Assembly (NCBI GenBank): GCA_903885375.1
Contig: CAISIK010000015.1
Coordinates: 1-35,867, forward strand
Reading direction: 5' to 3'
DNA from: an uncultured Pseudomonadota bacterium
Lineage (GTDB): Bacteria; Myxococcota_A; UBA796; SXON01
Length of the DNA stretch: 35,867 nucleotides
Shown: one piece after another, positions 3,631 through 25,650 of the stretch
Layout of the letters: every line of letters begins with the position of its first letter
Numbering within the stretch: the first letter of the stretch is position 1
Position numbers and translations under genes: made by a program
Notes under the pieces: generated by a model
Seen by the model: the letters and a program-made list of their open reading frames with translations, nothing else
The model's database searches: none
What the model was told of the DNA's origin: nothing

Positions 3631-4512
3631 ATGTCCACCGCCGAAACTTCCTATGTGGAGCCGCTCGAGGTCCGGCATCGGCGTGAGTCGATCGTACGGA
3701 TGGCCCTCGCGGCAGCCACTGCGCTGGCGGCGCTCCCCGCGCTGGCCATCGTCGGGTTCATCGTGATCAAGGGGGCGCCCGCGCTCTCGTGGGGCTTCCT
3801 CACCGAGATGCCGGTCTCGGGCATGACCGCGGGCGGCATCCAGCCGGCCATCGTCGGTACGCTTTGGCTCGTGGGGGTCTCCCTCCTCTTCTCCGTGCCG
3901 GTGGGCGTGCTCGCGGGAATGTACCTCTCGGAGTACGCGGGCGAGGGCCGTCTGGCGCGCATGGTCGACCTCGCCATCGTCAATCTGGCGGGCGTGCCGT
4001 CGATCGTCCATGCCCTCTTCGGGCTCGGCGCGTTCGTGCTCTTCCTCGACTTCGGCACGAGCATCCTCTCCGGCGGGCTCACGCTCGGGGTGATGACCCT
4101 CCCGGTGATCATCACCTCCACCAAGGCGGCGCTGCAGTCCGTCCCCCACAACTTCCGTGTGGCGTGCTGGAACCTCGGCGCCACCCGCTGGCAGACGATC
4201 TGGCACGTCGTGCTCCCCAACGCGCTCCCCGGCATCCTCACGGGCGTGATCCTCCAGGTGAGCCGCTCCGCCGGCGAAACGGCGCCCGTGCTCTTCACCG
4301 GCGCCGCGTTCTACCTCCCCATCCTGCCCACCTCGGTGTGGGACCAGACGATGGCGCTCTCCATGCACGTATTCGCGCTGGTCACGCAGGTGCCGAACGT
4401 GTCGGAGGAGCTCAAGTACGGAACGGCGCTGGTGCTGGTTGGGGTCGTGCTGCTCTTCAACAGCTTCGCGATCGGCCTGCGGCTCTACCTGCGGAGGAAC
4501 CGGCGGTGGTAG
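3631..4512 (+). CDS. pstA: phosphate ABC transporter permease PstA
   Basis: The protein has 293 residues. After a short cytoplasmic N-terminus come six membrane segments. PstA hallmarks are GGIQPAIVGTLWLV, AIVNLAGVPSIVHALFGL, the coupling-helix EAA region (VPHNFRVACWNLGATRWQTI...VVLPNALPGILTG), and SRSAGETAPVLFTGAAFYL. PstA pairs with PstC to form the channel that carries phosphate across the inner membrane, powered by PstB. Unusually it is the first gene of the operon, ahead of the ATPases and the binding protein. The ATG at 3631 has only a weak AGG upstream. The last 7 bases overlap the GTG start of pstB1. Confidence 0.95.
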   Translation: MSTAETSYVEPLEVRHRRESIVRMALAAATALAALPALAIVGFIVIKGAPALSWGFLTEMPVSGMTAGGIQPAIVGTLWLVGVSLLFSVPVGVLAGMYLSEYAGEGRLARMVDLAIVNLAGVPSIVHALFGLGAFVLFLDFGTSILSGGLTLGVMTLPVIITSTKAALQSVPHNFRVACWNLGATRWQTIWHVVLPNALPGILTGVILQVSRSAGETAPVLFTGAAFYLPILPTSVWDQTMALSMHVFALVTQVPNVSEELKYGTALVLVGVVLLFNSFAIGLRLYLRRNRRW

Positions 4513-5261
4513 GCGACGATCTCGTGCGGATGGAGAACCTCACCATCCGCTACGGCGATCGCGCCGTGGTGCGCGATGTCACGCTCGCCGTGCCGCGAAA
4601 CGGCATCCTCGGCATCGTCGGCCCCGCGGGATCGGGCAAGAGCTCGTTGCTCACCGCGTTGAACCGGACCATCGACTTACACCCGAGCGCTCGGGTGGAG
4701 GGGAGGGTCACGCTCGATGGCACCGACGTTCGCCAGATGGAGCTGAGTGACCTTCGTCGCCGCGTGGCGATGGTGCTCCCGCTGCCGGTCGGCCTGCCGA
4801 TGTCCATCTACGAGAACGTGGCCTTCGCCCCCCGGATGGTGGGGGTGCGTCGTCGTTCGGAGCTCGACGAGATCGTCGAGCGTTGCCTCACCCAGGCGGC
4901 CCTCTGGGATGAGGTCAAGGACCGGCTCGACATGCTCGGAACGCGGCTGAGCGGTGGCCAGCAGCAGCGGCTCACGCTCGCGCGCGCGCTCTCCACCGAC
5001 CCCGACGTGCTCTGCCTCGATGAGTTCTCGATCGCGATCGATCCGGTCACCACGATGCGGATCGAGGCGGTGCTGATGGAGCTCAAGTCGCAGATGGCGA
5101 TTGTCATGGTCACCAACCTGCTCATGCAGGCCCGCCGCATCGCCGACGTCACCGCCTTCATGCTCAACGGCGAGCTGGTGGAGAGCGGCCGTACCGGCGA
5201 TCTCTTCGTCTTTGCCCGCGACCAGCGCACCAACGACTACCTCGCCGGGAAATTCGGATGA
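4506..5261 (+). CDS. pstB: PstB-type ATPase 1 (signature intact, Q-loop and switch His lost)
   Basis: The protein has 251 residues from GTG 4506, preceded by GGAGG (4493-4497) and overlapping pstA; ATG 4530 is an alternative. Motifs: A-loop Tyr16; Walker A GPAGSGKSS (39-47); signature LSGGQQQR (147-154), perfect; Walker B VLCLDE with Asp171/Glu172 present. Three positions deviate from PstB. The Q-loop reads MVLPLPVGLPMS, with Pro91 where Gln is expected. The Walker B proline is Phe173 (DEF, not DEP). The switch-histidine motif VTHNMQQA reads VTNLLMQA, with Asn203 for His. It would therefore supply a good signature to its partner but should hydrolyse ATP poorly at its own site. This is complementary to the next gene, which suggests a PstB1-PstB2 heterodimer driving PstA/PstC. 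The family call is firm; the asymmetry is inference from motifs. Confidence 0.9.
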   Translation: MVGDDLVRMENLTIRYGDRAVVRDVTLAVPRNGILGIVGPAGSGKSSLLTALNRTIDLHPSARVEGRVTLDGTDVRQMELSDLRRRVAMVLPLPVGLPMSIYENVAFAPRMVGVRRRSELDEIVERCLTQAALWDEVKDRLDMLGTRLSGGQQQRLTLARALSTDPDVLCLDEFSIAIDPVTTMRIEAVLMELKSQMAIVMVTNLLMQARRIADVTAFMLNGELVESGRTGDLFVFARDQRTNDYLAGKFG

Positions 5262-6019
5262 GCGAAGCGGCCAGCATCCGTGCCCGCGGGCTCTCCCTCT
5301 GGTACGGGTCCTTCCGGGCGCTCGACTGTGTGTCGCTCGAGGTGAAGCCGGGCGAAATCCTCGGGCTCATCGGCCCCTCGGGCTGCGGCAAGAGCACGCT
5401 CTTGCGCTGCTTCAACCGCATGAACGACCTCCCCTACGTGCGCACCGAAGGCGCGCTGGAGGTGGCTGGTTACGACTGCATGAGCCGCGAGGTCGACACG
5501 CTCGCCCTGCGGCGCGACGTGGGCATGGTCTTCCAACGCCCGAACCCCCTGCCGATCTCGATCCGCGACAACGTGCTCTTCGGCCTGCGGCTCCACGCGC
5601 CGAAGACCCCCCCGTCGGTCCAGGAAGGGCTGATGGTGGCGGCGCTGGAGCGGGTTCAGCTGTGGGAGCAGGTCAAGGACAAGCTCCACCACGATGGCGA
5701 GTCGCTCTCGCTCGAAGCCCGCCAGAAGTTGTGCATCGCCCGCCTCCTTCCGCTGAAGCCTCGGGTGCTCCTGCTCGACGAGCCCTGCAGCGCGCTCGAT
5801 CCGGAGGGCACCCGCGCCGTGGAGGAGCTGATGGACCAGCTCCGCGGTGAGTTCACGCAGGTGTGCGTCACCCACAACATGCAGCAGGCCCGCCGCATCT
5901 CCGACCGCTGCGTCTTCATGCTGATGGGTGAGCTGGTGGAGGTGGGGGTGACCTCCGAGCTCTTCACCCGGCCCACCGACGACCGCACCGCCCGTTACAT
6001 CGAGGGCCGGTATGGGTAG
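5258..6019 (+). CDS. pstB: PstB-type ATPase 2 (catalytic motifs intact, ABC signature degenerate)
   Basis: The protein has 253 residues; its ATG overlaps the stop of pstB1 (ATGA). It keeps A-loop Tyr16, Walker A GPSGCGKST (39-47), Q-loop MVFQRPNPLPISI with Gln93, Walker B VLLLDEPCSALDP with Asp174/Glu175, and the switch histidine in VTHNMQQA (His206). These are textbook PstB sequences. The ABC signature, LSGGQQQRLCIAR in PstB, reads LSLEARQKLCIAR (150-162), so both glycines and the glutamine of LSGGQ are replaced by Leu, Glu and Ala. Such a protein cannot contribute a normal signature to a partner's ATP, but it can hydrolyse ATP when the partner has one. PstB1 does. The frame is intact around the change, so this is not an obvious frameshift. 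Confidence 0.92.
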   Translation: MSEAASIRARGLSLWYGSFRALDCVSLEVKPGEILGLIGPSGCGKSTLLRCFNRMNDLPYVRTEGALEVAGYDCMSREVDTLALRRDVGMVFQRPNPLPISIRDNVLFGLRLHAPKTPPSVQEGLMVAALERVQLWEQVKDKLHHDGESLSLEARQKLCIARLLPLKPRVLLLDEPCSALDPEGTRAVEELMDQLRGEFTQVCVTHNMQQARRISDRCVFMLMGELVEVGVTSELFTRPTDDRTARYIEGRYG

Positions 6020-6094: not shown

Positions 6095-7102
6095 ATGTCC
6101 CGCTTCGGTCTGTTCGCGTTTCTCGCCCTCGCCGCCTGTTCCCGCCCCGAAACCAACAAGGACGGCACCGAGGGTTCCGTCGGCAAGCCCGTGGTGGCCC
6201 AGGTGAAGGGCAGCGACACGATGGTGAACCTGATGCAGGCCTACTCCGAGGCCTACTCCAAGAAGAACCCGATGCTCGTCGTGGCCGTGACCGGCGGCGG
6301 CTCGGGTACGGGCATCAAGGCGCTGATCGACAAGACCACCGACATGGCCTCCTCCTCGCGCGCAATGAAGGAAGACGAGAAGGCGCTCGCCACCGGCAAC
6401 GGGGTGAACCCCGTCGAGACGGTCGTGGCCTACGACGGCCTCAGCATCTACGTGCACAAGGAGAACCCGATCGCACAGCTCGACTTCAGCCAGCTGAAGT
6501 GCATCTACACCGCCGATGGTGCCTGCAGCCACTGGAAGGACGTGGGCGTGACGCTCGACTGCGATGGCAAGGGCGATGACACCATCGTGAAGACCGGGCG
6601 CCAGAACAACTCGGGCACGTACGAGTACTTCAAGGAGCACGTCATCGGCAAGGAAGGCAAGTTCGCCGCCACCATGGACCAGTCTGGCACGCAGCAGGTG
6701 GTCGACGTGGTCGCCACCACCAAGTGCGCCATCGGCTACGGCGGCATGGGCTACCACCACGAGAACGCCCGCTCGGTCTGCCTCGCGAAGGAGGCCGCCG
6801 ACACCTGCGTCGAGCCCACCGAAGCCAACGTGCTCGCCGCGAAGTACCCCTTCAGCCGGCCGCTGTTCATCTACACCAACGGTGCGCCCTCGGGCGCCAT
6901 CGCCGAGTTCCTCGGCTGGGCGAAGGGCCCGGAGGCCAAGGATGTCGTCGTGACCGCCGGCTTTGTGCCCACCCCCGAGGCGAGCGGCGCTTCGGCCACG
7001 CCGATCCCCGCGGCTCCGGCCCCCGAAGGCGCCGCCCCGGCTCCGGAAGGTGCTGCGCCCGCCCCGGAAGCCGCTCCTGCCGCGGCGCCTGCGAGCCACT
7101 GA
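6095..7102 (+). CDS. pstS: phosphate-binding lipoprotein PstS
   Basis: The protein has 335 residues from ATG 6095, chosen over an upstream GTG (6071) because it has GGAG at 6086-6089 and begins a proper lipoprotein signal (FLALAAC, Cys15). Phosphate-contact motifs of the PstS fold are visible: KGSDTMVNLMQAY, TGGGSGTGIKALID, ASSSRAMKEDE and TGRQNNSGTYEYF. It captures phosphate outside the inner membrane and delivers it to PstC/PstA. Odd points: about six cysteines in the mature domain (KCIYTADGACSHW, LDCDG, TTKCAIGYGG, SVCLAKEAADTCVEP), which may form disulfides, and a C-terminal Ala/Pro tail with two PAPEGAA repeats (about 295-335) after the folded domain. It lies between the ATPase genes and pstC. 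Confidence 0.95.
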   Translation: MSRFGLFAFLALAACSRPETNKDGTEGSVGKPVVAQVKGSDTMVNLMQAYSEAYSKKNPMLVVAVTGGGSGTGIKALIDKTTDMASSSRAMKEDEKALATGNGVNPVETVVAYDGLSIYVHKENPIAQLDFSQLKCIYTADGACSHWKDVGVTLDCDGKGDDTIVKTGRQNNSGTYEYFKEHVIGKEGKFAATMDQSGTQQVVDVVATTKCAIGYGGMGYHHENARSVCLAKEAADTCVEPTEANVLAAKYPFSRPLFIYTNGAPSGAIAEFLGWAKGPEAKDVVVTAGFVPTPEASGASATPIPAAPAPEGAAPAPEGAAPAPEAAPAAAPASH

Positions 7103-7105
7103 ACG

Positions 7106-8005
7106 ATGGTCGCTGCTCCCGCACGTCGGCGCCCCTCGAAGCTGACTCGACCCGTCGAGTTCGTGATCGAGGGGCTGATCCGCCTGTGCGGGCTGTCGGC
7201 GATCGTGTTCATCCTCGCGATCTTCGTGTTCATCGGCAAGGAAGGCATCGTATTCCTGCTGGGCCACATCGGCGGAATGCTCTCGTCCACCGATTGGAGC
7301 CCCACCCACGAACCGCCTGAGTTCGGCCTGCTGGCCCTCCTCGCGGGTACGGCCTGGTGCGTGGGGCTCTCGCTGATCGTCTCGGTGCCGATCGGCCTCG
7401 CGGCGGCCGTCTTCCTCAGCGAGTTCGCGAGCGAAGGCTGGCGCGAGTTCCTGAAGGTGGTGGTGGAGCTCCTCGCCGCCATCCCCAGCGTGGTTTGGGG
7501 GTTCATCGGCGTGATGATCCTCAACCCGCTGCTCCAGTGGGCCGGCGCCCAGGTAGGCCTCAACGGCCTCAACGGCGCCATCGTGCTGGCGTTGATGACG
7601 CTTCCGCTGCTGGTTTCGCTCGGTGAGGACGCGCTCCGCGCCGTACCCGAGAGCTACCGTCAGGCGGCGATCGCGATGGGCGCCACGAAGTGGGAGATGG
7701 TGTGGCGGGTGCTCCTGCCCGCCTCGCGCCGCGGCTTGCTCGTGGCGGTCCTCCTCGGCGTGGGGCGGTGTGTCGGCGAGACCATGGCGGTGCTCATGGT
7801 CACCGGCCATGCCGCACGCATCCCGCATTCGCTGTACGACCCCGTCCGCACCCTCACGGCCACCATCGCCGCCGAGCTCGGCGAGGCCGTGCGCGGTGGC
7901 CAGCACTACCAGGCGCTCTTTGCGCTCGGCATCCTCTTGTTCTTCATGACGTTTGTCGTCAACCTCATCGCGGACCGCGCGGTTCGCGCCCGGAAAATCG
8001 GGTAG
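7106..8005 (+). CDS. pstC: phosphate ABC transporter permease PstC
   Basis: The protein has 299 residues and starts 3 bases after the pstS stop. A basic N-terminus is followed by six membrane segments. PstC features include the first helix (LCGLSAIVFILAIFVFIGKE), GTAWCVGLSLIVSVPIGLAAA, VELLAAIPSVVWGFIGVMIL, the EAA coupling region (VPESYRQAAIAMGATKWEMV...VLLPASRRG) and GVGRCVGETMAVLMVTGHA. It forms the transmembrane pathway with PstA. Placing pstC after pstS and far from pstA is a rearrangement of the usual pstSCAB order, but the full subunit set is present. Confidence 0.95.
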   Translation: MVAAPARRRPSKLTRPVEFVIEGLIRLCGLSAIVFILAIFVFIGKEGIVFLLGHIGGMLSSTDWSPTHEPPEFGLLALLAGTAWCVGLSLIVSVPIGLAAAVFLSEFASEGWREFLKVVVELLAAIPSVVWGFIGVMILNPLLQWAGAQVGLNGLNGAIVLALMTLPLLVSLGEDALRAVPESYRQAAIAMGATKWEMVWRVLLPASRRGLLVAVLLGVGRCVGETMAVLMVTGHAARIPHSLYDPVRTLTATIAAELGEAVRGGQHYQALFALGILLFFMTFVVNLIADRAVRARKIG

Positions 8006-8016
8006 CTGGGAACATC

Positions 8017-8697
8017 ATGCAGACACCGCACCTCGATGCCGTCTACGAGCTGGAAATTCAGGCCATCCGCACGCGGCTGGCGCGTACCGGCGCTCGGGCC
8101 GAGCAGATGGTGCGGGATTCCGTGCGGGCCCTGCTGGACCGCGATCCGGCCCTCGCCCGGCAGGTCATGGCCACCGACCGCGAGCTGAACCGCCTCGAGC
8201 TCGAGCTCGACTATGAGTGCGTCATGCTCCTCGCGCGGCGCTCGCCGGTTGGAGAGGACCTCCGCCTCGTGCTCACCGCCCTGAAAGCCGACGTGGACAT
8301 GGAGCGCATCGGCGATCTCGCGGTGCACGTGGCCGAGAGGGCCATCGAGCTGGCGAGCGGCCCCGGCGTGGAAGCGCTGCCCGAGCTGGTAGAGCTGGCC
8401 GAACGGTCGTCGGAGCACCTCGAGCGCACCATGCGTGCCCTCGCCGAGAAGGACAGCATCGTGGCCCGCGAGGTGATCGGCTACGACAAGCAGCTCGACG
8501 TGCTGCACGGCGATCACATGCGGCGCATCATCCAGGTGGCGAAGGACCACCCCGACCAGCTCGAGCGTGTGCTCGCGTGGTCGAGCGTGTCGCGACACCT
8601 CGAGCGCATCTCGGATCACGCCTGCAACATCGCCGAGATGGTGGTTTTCCTCGCCGAAGGGCAGGTTGTTCGCCACGGTGGGCACCAGGCACCGTAG
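8017..8697 (+). CDS. phoU: phosphate signalling protein PhoU
   Basis: The protein has 226 residues, the usual PhoU length, and ends the pst operon 11 bases after pstC. It has two repeated three-helix bundles, each with the conserved metal-binding motif: VDMERIGDLAVHVAE (about 95-109) and SRHLERISDHACNIAEMV (about 192-209). PhoU links the Pst transporter to the PhoR sensor kinase and represses the phosphate regulon when phosphate is plentiful. No phoR/phoB genes are in this window; the kinase and receiver at 26-28 kb lack a DNA-binding output and are not obvious candidates. Confidence 0.95.
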   Translation: MQTPHLDAVYELEIQAIRTRLARTGARAEQMVRDSVRALLDRDPALARQVMATDRELNRLELELDYECVMLLARRSPVGEDLRLVLTALKADVDMERIGDLAVHVAERAIELASGPGVEALPELVELAERSSEHLERTMRALAEKDSIVAREVIGYDKQLDVLHGDHMRRIIQVAKDHPDQLERVLAWSSVSRHLERISDHACNIAEMVVFLAEGQVVRHGGHQAP

Positions 8698-11062: not shown

Positions 11063-11769
11063 GGTTGCTCCTGCTCCTCCTCGCGCTGTGGGAGGTAGCG
11101 GGGCGCGTGTGGCCGCCGGGGCCGCTCGTGCCGCTGCCGAGCGCGATCGTGCTCGATGCGGCCTCGCTGCTCGCCAGCGGCGAGCTGTTCGTGCACGTGC
11201 TGCGTTCCGCGGTGCGGGTGGCGTTGGGCGGCGGCGTGGGGGCGGGGGTGGGGGTGCTCGTGGGGGTGGCGCTGGCGGCAGGCGGTCCGGGGCGCCTCTT
11301 CGACGTGCCCGTTGCGCTCGCGCGGCCGATCCCGTCCCTCGCCTGGATCCCGCTCACGCTGCTCTGGTTCGGGGTCGGCGAGGGCCAGCAGATCGCCATC
11401 CTCGCGCTGGCAACCTTCGGCGTGGTGGTGGCGGGAACGCGGGATGCGATCGGGGCGGTGCCGACGGCGTGGCTGCAGGCCGCCGAGAACCTCGGCGCCA
11501 GCCGGGGCGCACGGCTCGGGGTGCGGGCGCAGGCGGCGCTGCCGGGCGTGCTCGCGTCGGTGGCGGAAGGTTTTGCGGCGGCGTGGTTCGTGCTCGTGGC
11601 CGCGGAGTTCGTGTCGGCCACCGAGGGGCTCGGCGTGCTGGTGCTCGCCGGGCGCGACCTCATCCTGCCGGCGCGCACCTTCGTGGGGGCCGCGGGGCTC
11701 GCGGCGTCGGCCGGGCTGACGGCCTGGGCGCTCCGGGCCCTCCGAGGGCGGCTCACGAGGTGGGCATGA
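11059..11769 (+). CDS. ABC importer permease 2 (SsuC/TauC type)
   Basis: The protein has 236 residues from GTG 11059, which overlaps the stop of permease 1 (GTGA). It begins directly with a hydrophobic helix (RLLLLLLALWEVAGRVW) and shows the family layout: PLPSAIVLDAASLLASGELF, LARPIPSLAWIPLTLLWFGV, the coupling loop AENLGASRGARLGVRAQAAL, and AWFVLVAAEFVSATEGLGVL. It is clearly related to permease 1 in pattern but differs through most of its length. Its last bases overlap the ATPase gene (ATGA), so the four transporter genes form one coupled operon. Confidence 0.9.
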   Translation: MRLLLLLLALWEVAGRVWPPGPLVPLPSAIVLDAASLLASGELFVHVLRSAVRVALGGGVGAGVGVLVGVALAAGGPGRLFDVPVALARPIPSLAWIPLTLLWFGVGEGQQIAILALATFGVVVAGTRDAIGAVPTAWLQAAENLGASRGARLGVRAQAALPGVLASVAEGFAAAWFVLVAAEFVSATEGLGVLVLAGRDLILPARTFVGAAGLAASAGLTAWALRALRGRLTRWA

Positions 11770-12494
11770 TCCGCGTTCGCGGCGTGTCGCGCACCTTCGT
11801 GGAGGCCCGGACCTCCGCGCGCGTACCGGCGCTCGATGGCTTCGAGCTCGAGGTTTCCCGAGGCGAGTTCCTCGCCATCCTCGGACCGAGCGGCTGCGGG
11901 AAGAGCACGCTGCTGCGCCTGCTCGCCGGCTTCGACCGGGCGGACGCCGGCCTCGTGGAGGTGGACGGCGCGCCGGTCACGGCGATCTCGCCGCGACGCC
12001 TCCTCGTCTCGCAGGACCCGGCGCTCTTCCCGTGGCTGACCGCCGCCGAGAACATCGGCTTCGGGCTCCGCGCCCAGGGCCGGGCGGACCCCGCGCGGGT
12101 GGAGGCGTTGCTCGTCGAGTTCGGGCTCGCGGGGGCCGGCGGGCGCTACCCGCGCGAGCTCTCCGGCGGCATGCGGCAGCGGGTGGCGCTCGCCCGGGCC
12201 CTGGCCGTCCGCCCCGACGTGCTGCTGCTCGACGAGCCCTTCGGCGCCCTCGACGCCCTCTCCCGCGAGTCCATGCAGGCGCTGCTCGAGGCCACATGGC
12301 TTGCCAGCGGGGCCACCGTCGTGCTCGTCACCCACTCGGTCGACGAAGCGTTGCGCCTGGCGGACCGCGTGGTGGTGGTGAGCCCGCGGCCGGCGCGCGT
12401 CGTGGGGAGCGTCGTCGTGGAGAGCGCGCGCCCCCGGCGGGCCGGAAGCCACCCCGAGCTGCGCGAGAGACTGATGGGTTGGGCGGTGCCGTAG
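11766..12494 (+). CDS. ABC importer ATP-binding protein (SsuB/TauB type)
   Basis: The protein has 242 residues; ATG 11766 overlaps the stop of permease 2. All motifs are intact: Walker A GPSGCGKST, Q-loop LLVSQDPALFPWLTAAENI, signature LSGGMRQRVALARAL, Walker B VLLLDEPFGALDALSRE and the switch histidine in VLVTHSVDEALRLADRV. The DEPFGALD/THSVDEAL pattern is typical of the nitrate/sulfonate/taurine class. As the only ATPase gene in the operon it should act as a homodimer, unlike the paired PstB proteins upstream. It is the last gene; 62 bases separate it from the methyltransferase gene. Confidence 0.93.
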   Translation: MIRVRGVSRTFVEARTSARVPALDGFELEVSRGEFLAILGPSGCGKSTLLRLLAGFDRADAGLVEVDGAPVTAISPRRLLVSQDPALFPWLTAAENIGFGLRAQGRADPARVEALLVEFGLAGAGGRYPRELSGGMRQRVALARALAVRPDVLLLDEPFGALDALSRESMQALLEATWLASGATVVLVTHSVDEALRLADRVVVVSPRPARVVGSVVVESARPRRAGSHPELRERLMGWAVP

Positions 12495-22900: not shown

Positions 22901-23614
22901 ATGATCAGCGCGCGGCAGGTCGAGAAGCGGTACGCGGGGTTCCAGGCCCTCCACCCCCTCGATCTCGATGTTCGGGCGGGCGAGGTCTTCGGCTTTCTCG
23001 GCCTCAACGGCGCGGGAAAGACCACCACGCTGCGCATGCTCGCCGGCGTGCTCCCCGTCACCGCCGGCGAAATCCGCATCAACGGGCTCGATCTGCAGCG
23101 CGAACCTGTCGAGGCCAGGCGCGTCATGGGCTTCATCCCCGACCGACCCTACCTGTACGACAAGCTCACGGCGCGGGAGTTCCTCCAGTTCATCGGCGAG
23201 CTCTACGGGATGGGCGGGCCCGCGCTGCAGCACCGGATCGATCAGGTGCTCACCGAACACGCGCTGCAGGACTGGGGCAATGCCCTCATCGAGTCCTTCA
23301 GCCACGGCATGAAGCAGCGGCTGGTGCTGTGCGGAGCGCTCCTCCATCACCCCCTCCTGCTCATCGTGGATGAGCCAATGGTGGGGCTCGATCCCAGCGG
23401 GGCGCGGCAGATCAAGCAGACCTTCCGAACCTTCGCGGCGCAGGGGCGCACCGTCTTCCTCTCCACCCACACCCTCGCCGTGGCCGCCGAGGTTTGCGAC
23501 CGGATCGCGATCATCCACCAGGGGCGCATCGCCACCATGGGCACGCTCGATGAGGTCTGCGCCGGTCGTCCGCTGGAGGAGGTCTTCCTCCGCATCACGG
23601 GTAGCGAGGCATGA
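22901..23614 (+). CDS. ABC transporter ATP-binding protein (ABC-2/CcmA type), no permease nearby
   Basis: The protein has 237 residues. Motifs: Walker A GLNGAGKTTTLRM, Q-loop region MGFIPDRPYLYDKLTAREFL, signature ESFSHGMKQRLVLCGALL, Walker B LLLIVDEPMVGLDPSGARQI and switch His in VFLSTHTLAVAAEV. The sequence type (CcmA/EcsA-like) normally pairs with an ABC-2 membrane protein encoded next to it. None is present here: upstream is a transglutaminase-like protein and downstream a lipoprotein. The Q-loop glutamine position reads Asp-Arg (PDRPYL), as seen in some of this subfamily. Its stop overlaps the next start (ATGA). Confidence 0.92.
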   Translation: MISARQVEKRYAGFQALHPLDLDVRAGEVFGFLGLNGAGKTTTLRMLAGVLPVTAGEIRINGLDLQREPVEARRVMGFIPDRPYLYDKLTAREFLQFIGELYGMGGPALQHRIDQVLTEHALQDWGNALIESFSHGMKQRLVLCGALLHHPLLLIVDEPMVGLDPSGARQIKQTFRTFAAQGRTVFLSTHTLAVAAEVCDRIAIIHQGRIATMGTLDEVCAGRPLEEVFLRITGSEA

Positions 23615-24860: not shown

Positions 24861-25650
24861 GCCCGGCCTCGACGTCACCGACAGCGGCGTGCCCGTTCCG
24901 CTGATCTCCTTCCGGGGCGTGAAGAAGGCGTTCGGGCCGAAGATCATCTTTGACGATGCCACCCTCGACGTGTACCCCGGCGAAACGCTGACCATCCTCG
25001 GCGGCTCCGGCACCGGCAAGAGCGTGCTCATCAAGATGCTGATCGGCCTGCTCAAGACGGACGGCGGTAGCATCCAGGCGTTCGGACAGGAGGTCACGAC
25101 CCTCTCCGAGGCTGGCCTGATCGAGATCCGGAAGCGCATCGCGATGCTCTTCCAGTCGGGGGCGTTGTTTGACTCCTTGAGCGTGGCGGACAACATCAAG
25201 TACCCGCTCCGGGAGCACGGTTGGGGGCTCGAGTCGGCCATGAACGACCGGGTGGCGGAGGTGCTCGACATGGTGGGCATGACGGGCAGCGAGAAGTTGA
25301 AGCCGGCGGAGCTCTCCGGCGGCATGCGCAAGCGGGTGGGGCTCGCCCGCGCCATCGCCATGAAGCCGGAGGTGATCCTCTACGACGAGCCCACCACCGG
25401 GCTCGATCCGGTGAACGTCCGCCGCATCAACGGCTTGATCCTTTCCCTGCAGGCCCGGCTGGGCGTCACCAGCATCGTGGTGACCCACGACATGGACAGC
25501 TGTTTCACCGTGAGCGATCGCATCGCGATGCTCTACGAGCGGCGGATGGCCTTCGTGGGTAGCGCCGAGGCCACGCAGGACTGCGAGATCCCGTACGTGC
25601 GGGAGTTCACGCGGGGCGGAAAGGGCACGCTGGATACCGACGTCACCTGA
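24853..25650 (+). CDS. mlaF: MlaF family lipid ABC transporter ATPase
   Basis: The protein has 265 residues; its ATG lies inside the last codons of mlaE. Motifs: Walker A GGSGTGKSVLIKMLIGLL, Q-loop IAMLFQSGALFDSLSVADNI, signature LSGGMRKRVGLARAIAM, Walker B VILYDEPTTGLDPVNVRRIN and switch His in SIVVTHDMDSCFTVSDRIAM. LFQ(S/G)GALFDS is a hallmark of MlaF/Ttg2A. It powers the MlaE permease. An unusually long N-terminal extension (about 15 residues) precedes the first strand. After its stop a GGGGCG/CGCCCC hairpin (25652-25668) may mark the end of the operon. Confidence 0.95.
   Translation: MVEPGLDVTDSGVPVPLISFRGVKKAFGPKIIFDDATLDVYPGETLTILGGSGTGKSVLIKMLIGLLKTDGGSIQAFGQEVTTLSEAGLIEIRKRIAMLFQSGALFDSLSVADNIKYPLREHGWGLESAMNDRVAEVLDMVGMTGSEKLKPAELSGGMRKRVGLARAIAMKPEVILYDEPTTGLDPVNVRRINGLILSLQARLGVTSIVVTHDMDSCFTVSDRIAMLYERRMAFVGSAEATQDCEIPYVREFTRGGKGTLDTDVT

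Follow-up and report, generated by a model that had tools for sequence, protein, structure and literature searches.

The window analysed here is the whole stretch of 35,867 nucleotides at positions 1 to 35,867 of contig CAISIK010000015.1 (assembly GCA_903885375.1), from an uncultured bacterium of the Myxococcota_A lineage whose draft genome amounts to 6.0 Mb in 224 contigs and is 90% complete. It carries on its + strand a pst operon in the order pstA-pstB1-pstB2-pstS-pstC-phoU, in which two adjacent genes code for PstB-type ATP-binding cassette (ABC) ATPases, each of which lacks the part of the ATP-site motifs that the other retains. This complementary loss recurs in related pairs of five bacterial groups and probably reflects an obligate PstB1-PstB2 heterodimer with one hydrolytic site and one silent site that likely binds nucleotide, which would serve the likely import of phosphate. 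The products of pstA, pstS, pstC, and phoU score above their NCBIfam cut-offs; PstB1 and PstB2 both fall below NCBI's curated equivalog cut-off for TIGR00972, though this family tops the scores of each, and annotation pipelines may therefore name both proteins loosely. Phosphate as the transported substrate is suggested by the presence of PstS and PhoU, GTG at position 4506 is the likely start codon of pstB1, and the ATGA overlap between the two ATPase genes would fit their translational coupling. No further PstB-like gene was found in this genome at its 90% completeness, and the matches to PstB2 drop from 153.6 to 96.6 bits after the pair.

The ATP-site motifs are divided between the two proteins. 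Specifically, PstB1 reads GPAGSGKSS at Walker A, MVLPLP at the Q-loop, LSGGQQQR at the signature (intact, window 4947-4970), VLCLDEF at Walker B, and VMVTNLL at the switch, with Pro in place of the Q-loop Gln (Pro91), Phe after Walker B (Phe173), and Asn in place of the switch His (Asn203), residue numbers that are correct when counted from codon 4509. In turn, PstB2 (GPSGCGKST, MVFQRP, LSLEARQK, VLLLDEP, and VCVTHNM) has an intact Walker A, Q-loop (Gln93), Walker B (Asp174 and Glu175), and switch His (His206), and its signature is LSLEA (residues 150-154, window 5705-5719), with Glu at signature position 4. The lost and retained residues and the two signatures had been pointed out in an initial annotation of the stretch and were confirmed in the sequence. 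The canonical PstSCAB system of E. coli (PDB 9k3x, 9k3s) has the same fold and the same operon partners PstS, PstC, PstA, and PhoU; however, its PstB carries all the motifs (MVFQKP, LSGGQQQR, LDEP, and VTHN in 9k3x), whereas the window has two PstBs, each with a partial motif loss. The gapless alignment to 9k3x sets MVLPLP and VTN of PstB1 against MVFQKP and VTH, and LSLEARQK of PstB2 against LSGGQQQR. The predicted monomers are confident (predicted local distance difference test, pLDDT, 94.0 for PstB1 and 94.9 for PstB2), and E. coli PstB is the best structural match of both, with a template modelling score (TM-score) of 0.92 each against 9k3x_C. The same states are found in the nearest homologues, in sets that contain the window's own cluster, and are not due to chance: the closest 120 of 7999 scored PstB1 matches all have LSGGQ, with Pro replacing the Gln and Asn the His, and the closest 120 of 8000 scored PstB2 matches all have Gln and His intact. 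At signature position 4, 118 of these PstB2 matches carry an acidic residue, P0208 has Ala, and P0194 has a gap. In a single PstB2 match (P0131), Walker B is garbled, perhaps by a frameshift in the source.

Table 1. Genes and features of the pst operon, in window coordinates, with family scores and family cut-offs in bits.
Feature	Position	Strand	Evidence
pstA permease	3631..4512	+	TIGR00974, 263.9 bits vs cut-off 193.45
pstB1 ATPase subunit	4506..5261	+	best family PstB TIGR00972, 284.2 bits, below cut-off 343.2
pstB2 ATPase subunit, ATG start	5258..6019	+	best family PstB TIGR00972, 294.1 bits, below cut-off 343.2
ATGA overlap, pstB1 stop / pstB2 start	5258..5261	+	read from sequence
pstS-type phosphate-binding protein	6095..7102	+	TIGR02136, 226.9 bits vs cut-off 206.6
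pstC permease	7106..8005	+	TIGR02138, 266.3 bits vs cut-off 196.45
phoU	8008..8697	+	TIGR02135, 175.1 bits vs cut-off 130.25

The distribution of the pair was surveyed in 58 relatives, 282 genomes of the phylum, 199 of Acidobacteriota, 247 of Bacteroidota, 246 of Planctomycetota, and 274 from the class of a metagenome-assembled genome (MAG) of Accumulibacter, a genus known for polyphosphate storage. Pairs were collected by similarity to PstB1, the top matches were fetched, and 209 loci, some of them overlapping, were read by one script; three loci that are not PstB-like (L119, L121, L122) lie outside this number. A pair was counted as being of the window kind when its first gene is without the switch His, and it takes the group label of the genome used as the search centre. 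The 209 loci hold 94 same-strand adjacent pstB pairs, and 92 of these, each in its own locus, are of the window kind, with at least 33 in Planctomycetota, at least 25 in Myxococcota (window included), at least 18 in Acidobacteriota, at least 11 in Bacteroidota, and at least 5 in the Accumulibacter class, all group counts being lower bounds. In 89 of the 92 pairs, the first pst gene detected 5' of pstB1 is pstA, and the remaining three begin at contig ends. A profile scan of genome contigs returned 80 loci, mainly ordinary PstBs, among them three pairs of the window kind (L043, L047, L118).

Strictly complementary motif loss, which the initial annotation had proposed to look for by aligning adjacent pairs of related genomes, was found in 87 of the 88 fully readable pairs, across all five groups and after the exclusion of four pairs truncated at contig borders (L228, L234, L259, L267); the pattern is far wider than that annotation had supposed. 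In PstB1, the Q-loop position is Pro in 57, Ala in 28, and Ser in 7 of the 92 pairs, the switch position is invariably Asn (92/92), and the signature is LSGGQ in 91 pairs and ISGGQ in one (SGGQ in 92/92), while the Walker A Lys (91/91 readable), the Walker B Asp (92/92), and the catalytic Glu (92/92) are retained. In PstB2, the Q-loop Gln and the Walker A Lys are present in 92 of 92 pairs and the switch His in 88 of the 89 readable ones; signature position 4 is Glu in 85 and Asp in 6, that is, acidic in 91 of 91 readable proteins (one is unreadable). The change in the PstB2 signature is a conserved acidic residue, not a random loss, a point that the initial annotation had overlooked. The case that the initial annotation had set against its own proposal, a full set of motifs in one of the two proteins of a relative, was not found among the 92 pairs. 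PstB1 comes in two subtypes, PLP with DEF (57 pairs) and S/A with DEP (35 pairs), and both are found in Planctomycetota, Bacteroidota, and Acidobacteriota. In the acidobacterial locus L047, PstB1 (P0243) has, together with its closest 120 matches, Ser at the Gln position (121), VTN (121), and LSGGQ (120) or LSAGQ (1).

The 114 single PstBs of the surveyed loci have the switch His in 114 cases, the Q-loop Gln in 112, L/M/I-SGGQ in 108, and an acidic signature in none. This set excludes the duplicate locus L162 and four pair halves, at three of which (L130, L147, L148) the contig stops at or near the gene and at the fourth (L247) 456 bases on. Odd signatures among the singles are LSIGQ (L107, L108, L112), LSAGQ (L103), and LTTGQ or LGPGQ (L033, L035). 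The PstBs with LSIGQ, from an Omnitrophota MAG, a Cytophagales MAG, and Mucilaginibacter, also share an LGDE Walker B and have Gln and His intact. The single PstBs of L033/L162 (genome G034) and L035 (genome G025) have Ala at the Q-loop Gln together with LTTGQ or LGPGQ and an intact His; their contigs stop a few hundred bases upstream, so that a partner could be missing, and they may represent a further type of altered Pst ATPase. That all tandem pstB genes are of the complementary kind was ruled out by two pairs, one from the Firmicute Ammoniphilus (L046) and one from Bacteroidota (L257), in which both genes have all the motifs.

Within the phylum, the two genes occur together. In a reciprocal search by PstB2 profile, 23 of the 282 phylum genomes were found to have PstB2 (at least 405 bits, the next match having 381), and PstB1 is likewise present in 23, 22 of them at 277 bits or more (next match 240) plus a truncated gene in G280. 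Both genes are found in 22 of the 24 carriers, and in the remaining two, G280 and G027, a contig border lies at the expected site of the other gene; in G052, pstB1 and pstB2 lie on different contigs. G006, which belongs to the same genus as the window and is 92% complete, gave no PstB-type match at E 1e-30 or 1e-25.

In a FastTree phylogeny of 293 sequences, the 87 PstB1s (local support 0.998) and the 87 PstB2s (local support 0.973) each fall into a clade of their own. The two clades are not sisters, both are placed among single PstBs, and the deeper nodes are weak (supports 0.119 to 0.929); the all-motif tandem pairs L046 and L257 fall outside both clades. The tree was built without the pairs L228, L234, L259, L267, and L236, without the singles L130, L147, L148, L247, and L162, and without single domains of fewer than 215 residues, and it contains L033 under another label and L035 twice. 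The distances within PstB1 are matched by those within PstB2 (Mantel r 0.916, a value reached by 0 of 2000 permutations), and the mean PstB1-PstB2 identity inside a pair is 43%. One old pair that was moved or kept as a unit fits these data best and, given the weak deeper nodes, an old duplication may be the source of PstB1 and PstB2. A recent duplication within the genus was ruled out by the 43% mean identity, by the two separate clades, and by the fact that PstB1 and PstB2 together do not form a clade.

The ATP sites of ABC proteins are composite: one nucleotide-binding domain (NBD) supplies the A-loop, Walker A, Walker B, and H-loop, and its partner supplies the signature and D-loop (PMC9867378). 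A PstB1-PstB2 dimer would, by sequence, have one complete site and one incomplete site, and the complementary loss in recurrent matched pairs leads to the prediction that the two proteins work only as a mixed pair. Specifically, site A would be formed by the A-loop, Walker A, Q-loop, Walker B, and switch His of PstB2 with LSGGQ and the D-loop of PstB1; with all the catalytic elements there, it would hydrolyse ATP and drive the likely import of phosphate. Site B would be formed by Walker A and Walker B of PstB1, where the Gln is absent and the switch His is replaced by Asn, and by the acidic signature of PstB2; it would likely bind nucleotide without hydrolysing it and, by analogy with heterodimeric exporters, may hold the two NBDs together during turnover at site A. 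A homodimer of either PstB1 or PstB2 would have zero complete sites. The second Gly of LSGGQ touches the gamma-phosphate through its backbone (PMC9599529), and in ABCB10 its replacement by Asp (LSGDQ) or Val reduces hydrolysis, the CFTR mutation G551D being at the same position (PMC4459825); together with the make-up of the two sites, these points make a pair with one hydrolytic site the best reading. The two predicted sites also differ in conservation: over 23 motif columns, the mean entropy is 0.19 bits at site A versus 0.55 bits at site B, Walker A takes 4 forms in 92 PstB2s versus 30 in 91 PstB1s, and the A-loop carries Tyr in 91 of 91 PstB2s versus any aromatic residue in 75 of 91 PstB1s.

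Several points weigh against an obligate heterodimer with a single hydrolytic site. Since the pairs were selected by similarity to PstB1 and by the switch-His criterion, the conservation of PstB1 is partly built in, which does not apply to the state of PstB2; moreover, all the pairs derive from one origin and are thus not independent events. The PstB1 D-loop, which would belong to site A, is variable and accounts for about three quarters of the site A entropy, and the PstB2 D-loop, on the side of site B, is nearly fixed. PstB1 retains the Walker A Lys, the Asp, and the catalytic Glu, more than a dead site needs, and site B can therefore probably still hold nucleotide. Two exceptions are known, namely a PstB2 with Asn at the switch His (L161, 3976-4728, from G007, a draft genome with 7% estimated contamination) and the above-mentioned PstB2 with Ala at signature position 4 (P0208). 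Lastly, the structure predictions cover PstB1 and PstB2 as monomers only.

The acidic residue of PstB2 could also have a more specific function, mimicking the gamma-phosphate of ATP, pairing with the Walker A Lys of PstB1, and thereby locking the silent site, with one ATP spent per cycle. This extension is doubtful; if it were true, each phosphate would cost half the textbook ATP, and such a pump would be widespread. The Lys, Asp, and Glu that every readable PstB1 retains would also be expected in a heterodimer with two unequal working sites, a slow site B and a fast site A; however, the Gln, the switch His, and the Gly of the partner signature are all altered at site B in the 91 signature-readable pairs, and the change of this Gly to Asp reduces hydrolysis in ABCB10 (PMC4459825), which makes two working sites improbable. 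Even less probable are separate assemblies, in which a PstB2 homodimer powers uptake and PstB1 has a role in regulation or signalling, for instance for PhoU. A precedent exists in the unequal tandem pstB genes of E. faecalis, where phosphate import depends on pstB2, with pstB1 in an accessory role (PMC12096839), but both of those proteins have all the motifs according to the same source, whereas a PstB2 homodimer of the window kind would have two acidic-signature sites and zero LSGGQ; furthermore, PstB1 maintains SGGQ in 92 of 92 pairs while some elements of its own site drift, which fits a role in trans. Decay of one or both genes, or an assembly error, might be suspected in a draft genome of 224 contigs but is hardly credible in view of the states shared by 87 of the 88 fully readable pairs and by the closest matches, the open frames, and the confident monomer folds, and a pseudogene or sequencing error is ruled out for the motif states, which are shared across five groups.

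The initial annotation had described one-site asymmetry as well known in ABC exporters, the heterodimeric members of which have NBDs fused to membrane domains; TAP and CFTR are also degenerate-site ABC proteins. In the exporters TM287/288 and BmrCD, as in the proposed PstB1-PstB2 heterodimer, one consensus site is combined with one degenerate site, the signature of which departs from LSGGQ, and in TM287/288 the nucleotide at the degenerate site holds the NBDs in contact; however, the Walker B Glu of the degenerate site is replaced by Asp in TM287/288 (PMC5216877), whereas PstB1 keeps it in 92 of 92 pairs. The description thus holds for exporters but not as a feature of exporters only, since the B. 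subtilis importers RbsA and NupO likewise have one degenerate site; these carry two NBDs per chain and have lost the second Walker A Lys (PMC11466899), whereas the window has separate genes and the Lys is kept. The DppD and DppF ATPases, with consensus and degenerate sites, are compared in a supplementary figure of another report (PMC12136057). Among Pst systems, the tandem pstB genes of E. faecalis likewise lie adjacent in one pst operon, but, unlike in the window pair, Walker A, LSGGQ, Walker B, and the His are intact in PstB1 as well as in PstB2 of this Firmicute (PMC12096839); the authors of that study state that tandem pstB paralogs had previously been unstudied in print. PstBA-PstBB of B. 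subtilis has been modelled as a single complex (PMC11466899). No report of a degenerate or heterodimeric Pst ATPase was found in searches of one open-licence library of papers, in agreement with the initial annotation, which knew of no described Pst case.

In a homodimeric ABC importer, the question of whether one or two ATP molecules must be hydrolysed in each cycle is hard to address because any change alters both sites. The PstB1-PstB2 heterodimer, if true, would be a natural importer in which the two sites have already been separated by evolution, each half on its own gene. Moreover, the pairs provide 91 natural proteins in which the site of the CFTR gating mutation G551D is occupied by an acidic residue; this residue is conserved across five groups and is therefore probably useful there.

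Some loci carry further ATPases. At L170, L215, and L239, the stretch with the complementary pair also contains an all-motif PstB, which indicates that both kinds of system can coexist, and the Accumulibacter MAG of L043 has the pair plus another PstB-like match on a different contig. The window itself contains three more ABC ATPase-like stretches, at 11763-12380, 22901-23581, and 24904-25560.

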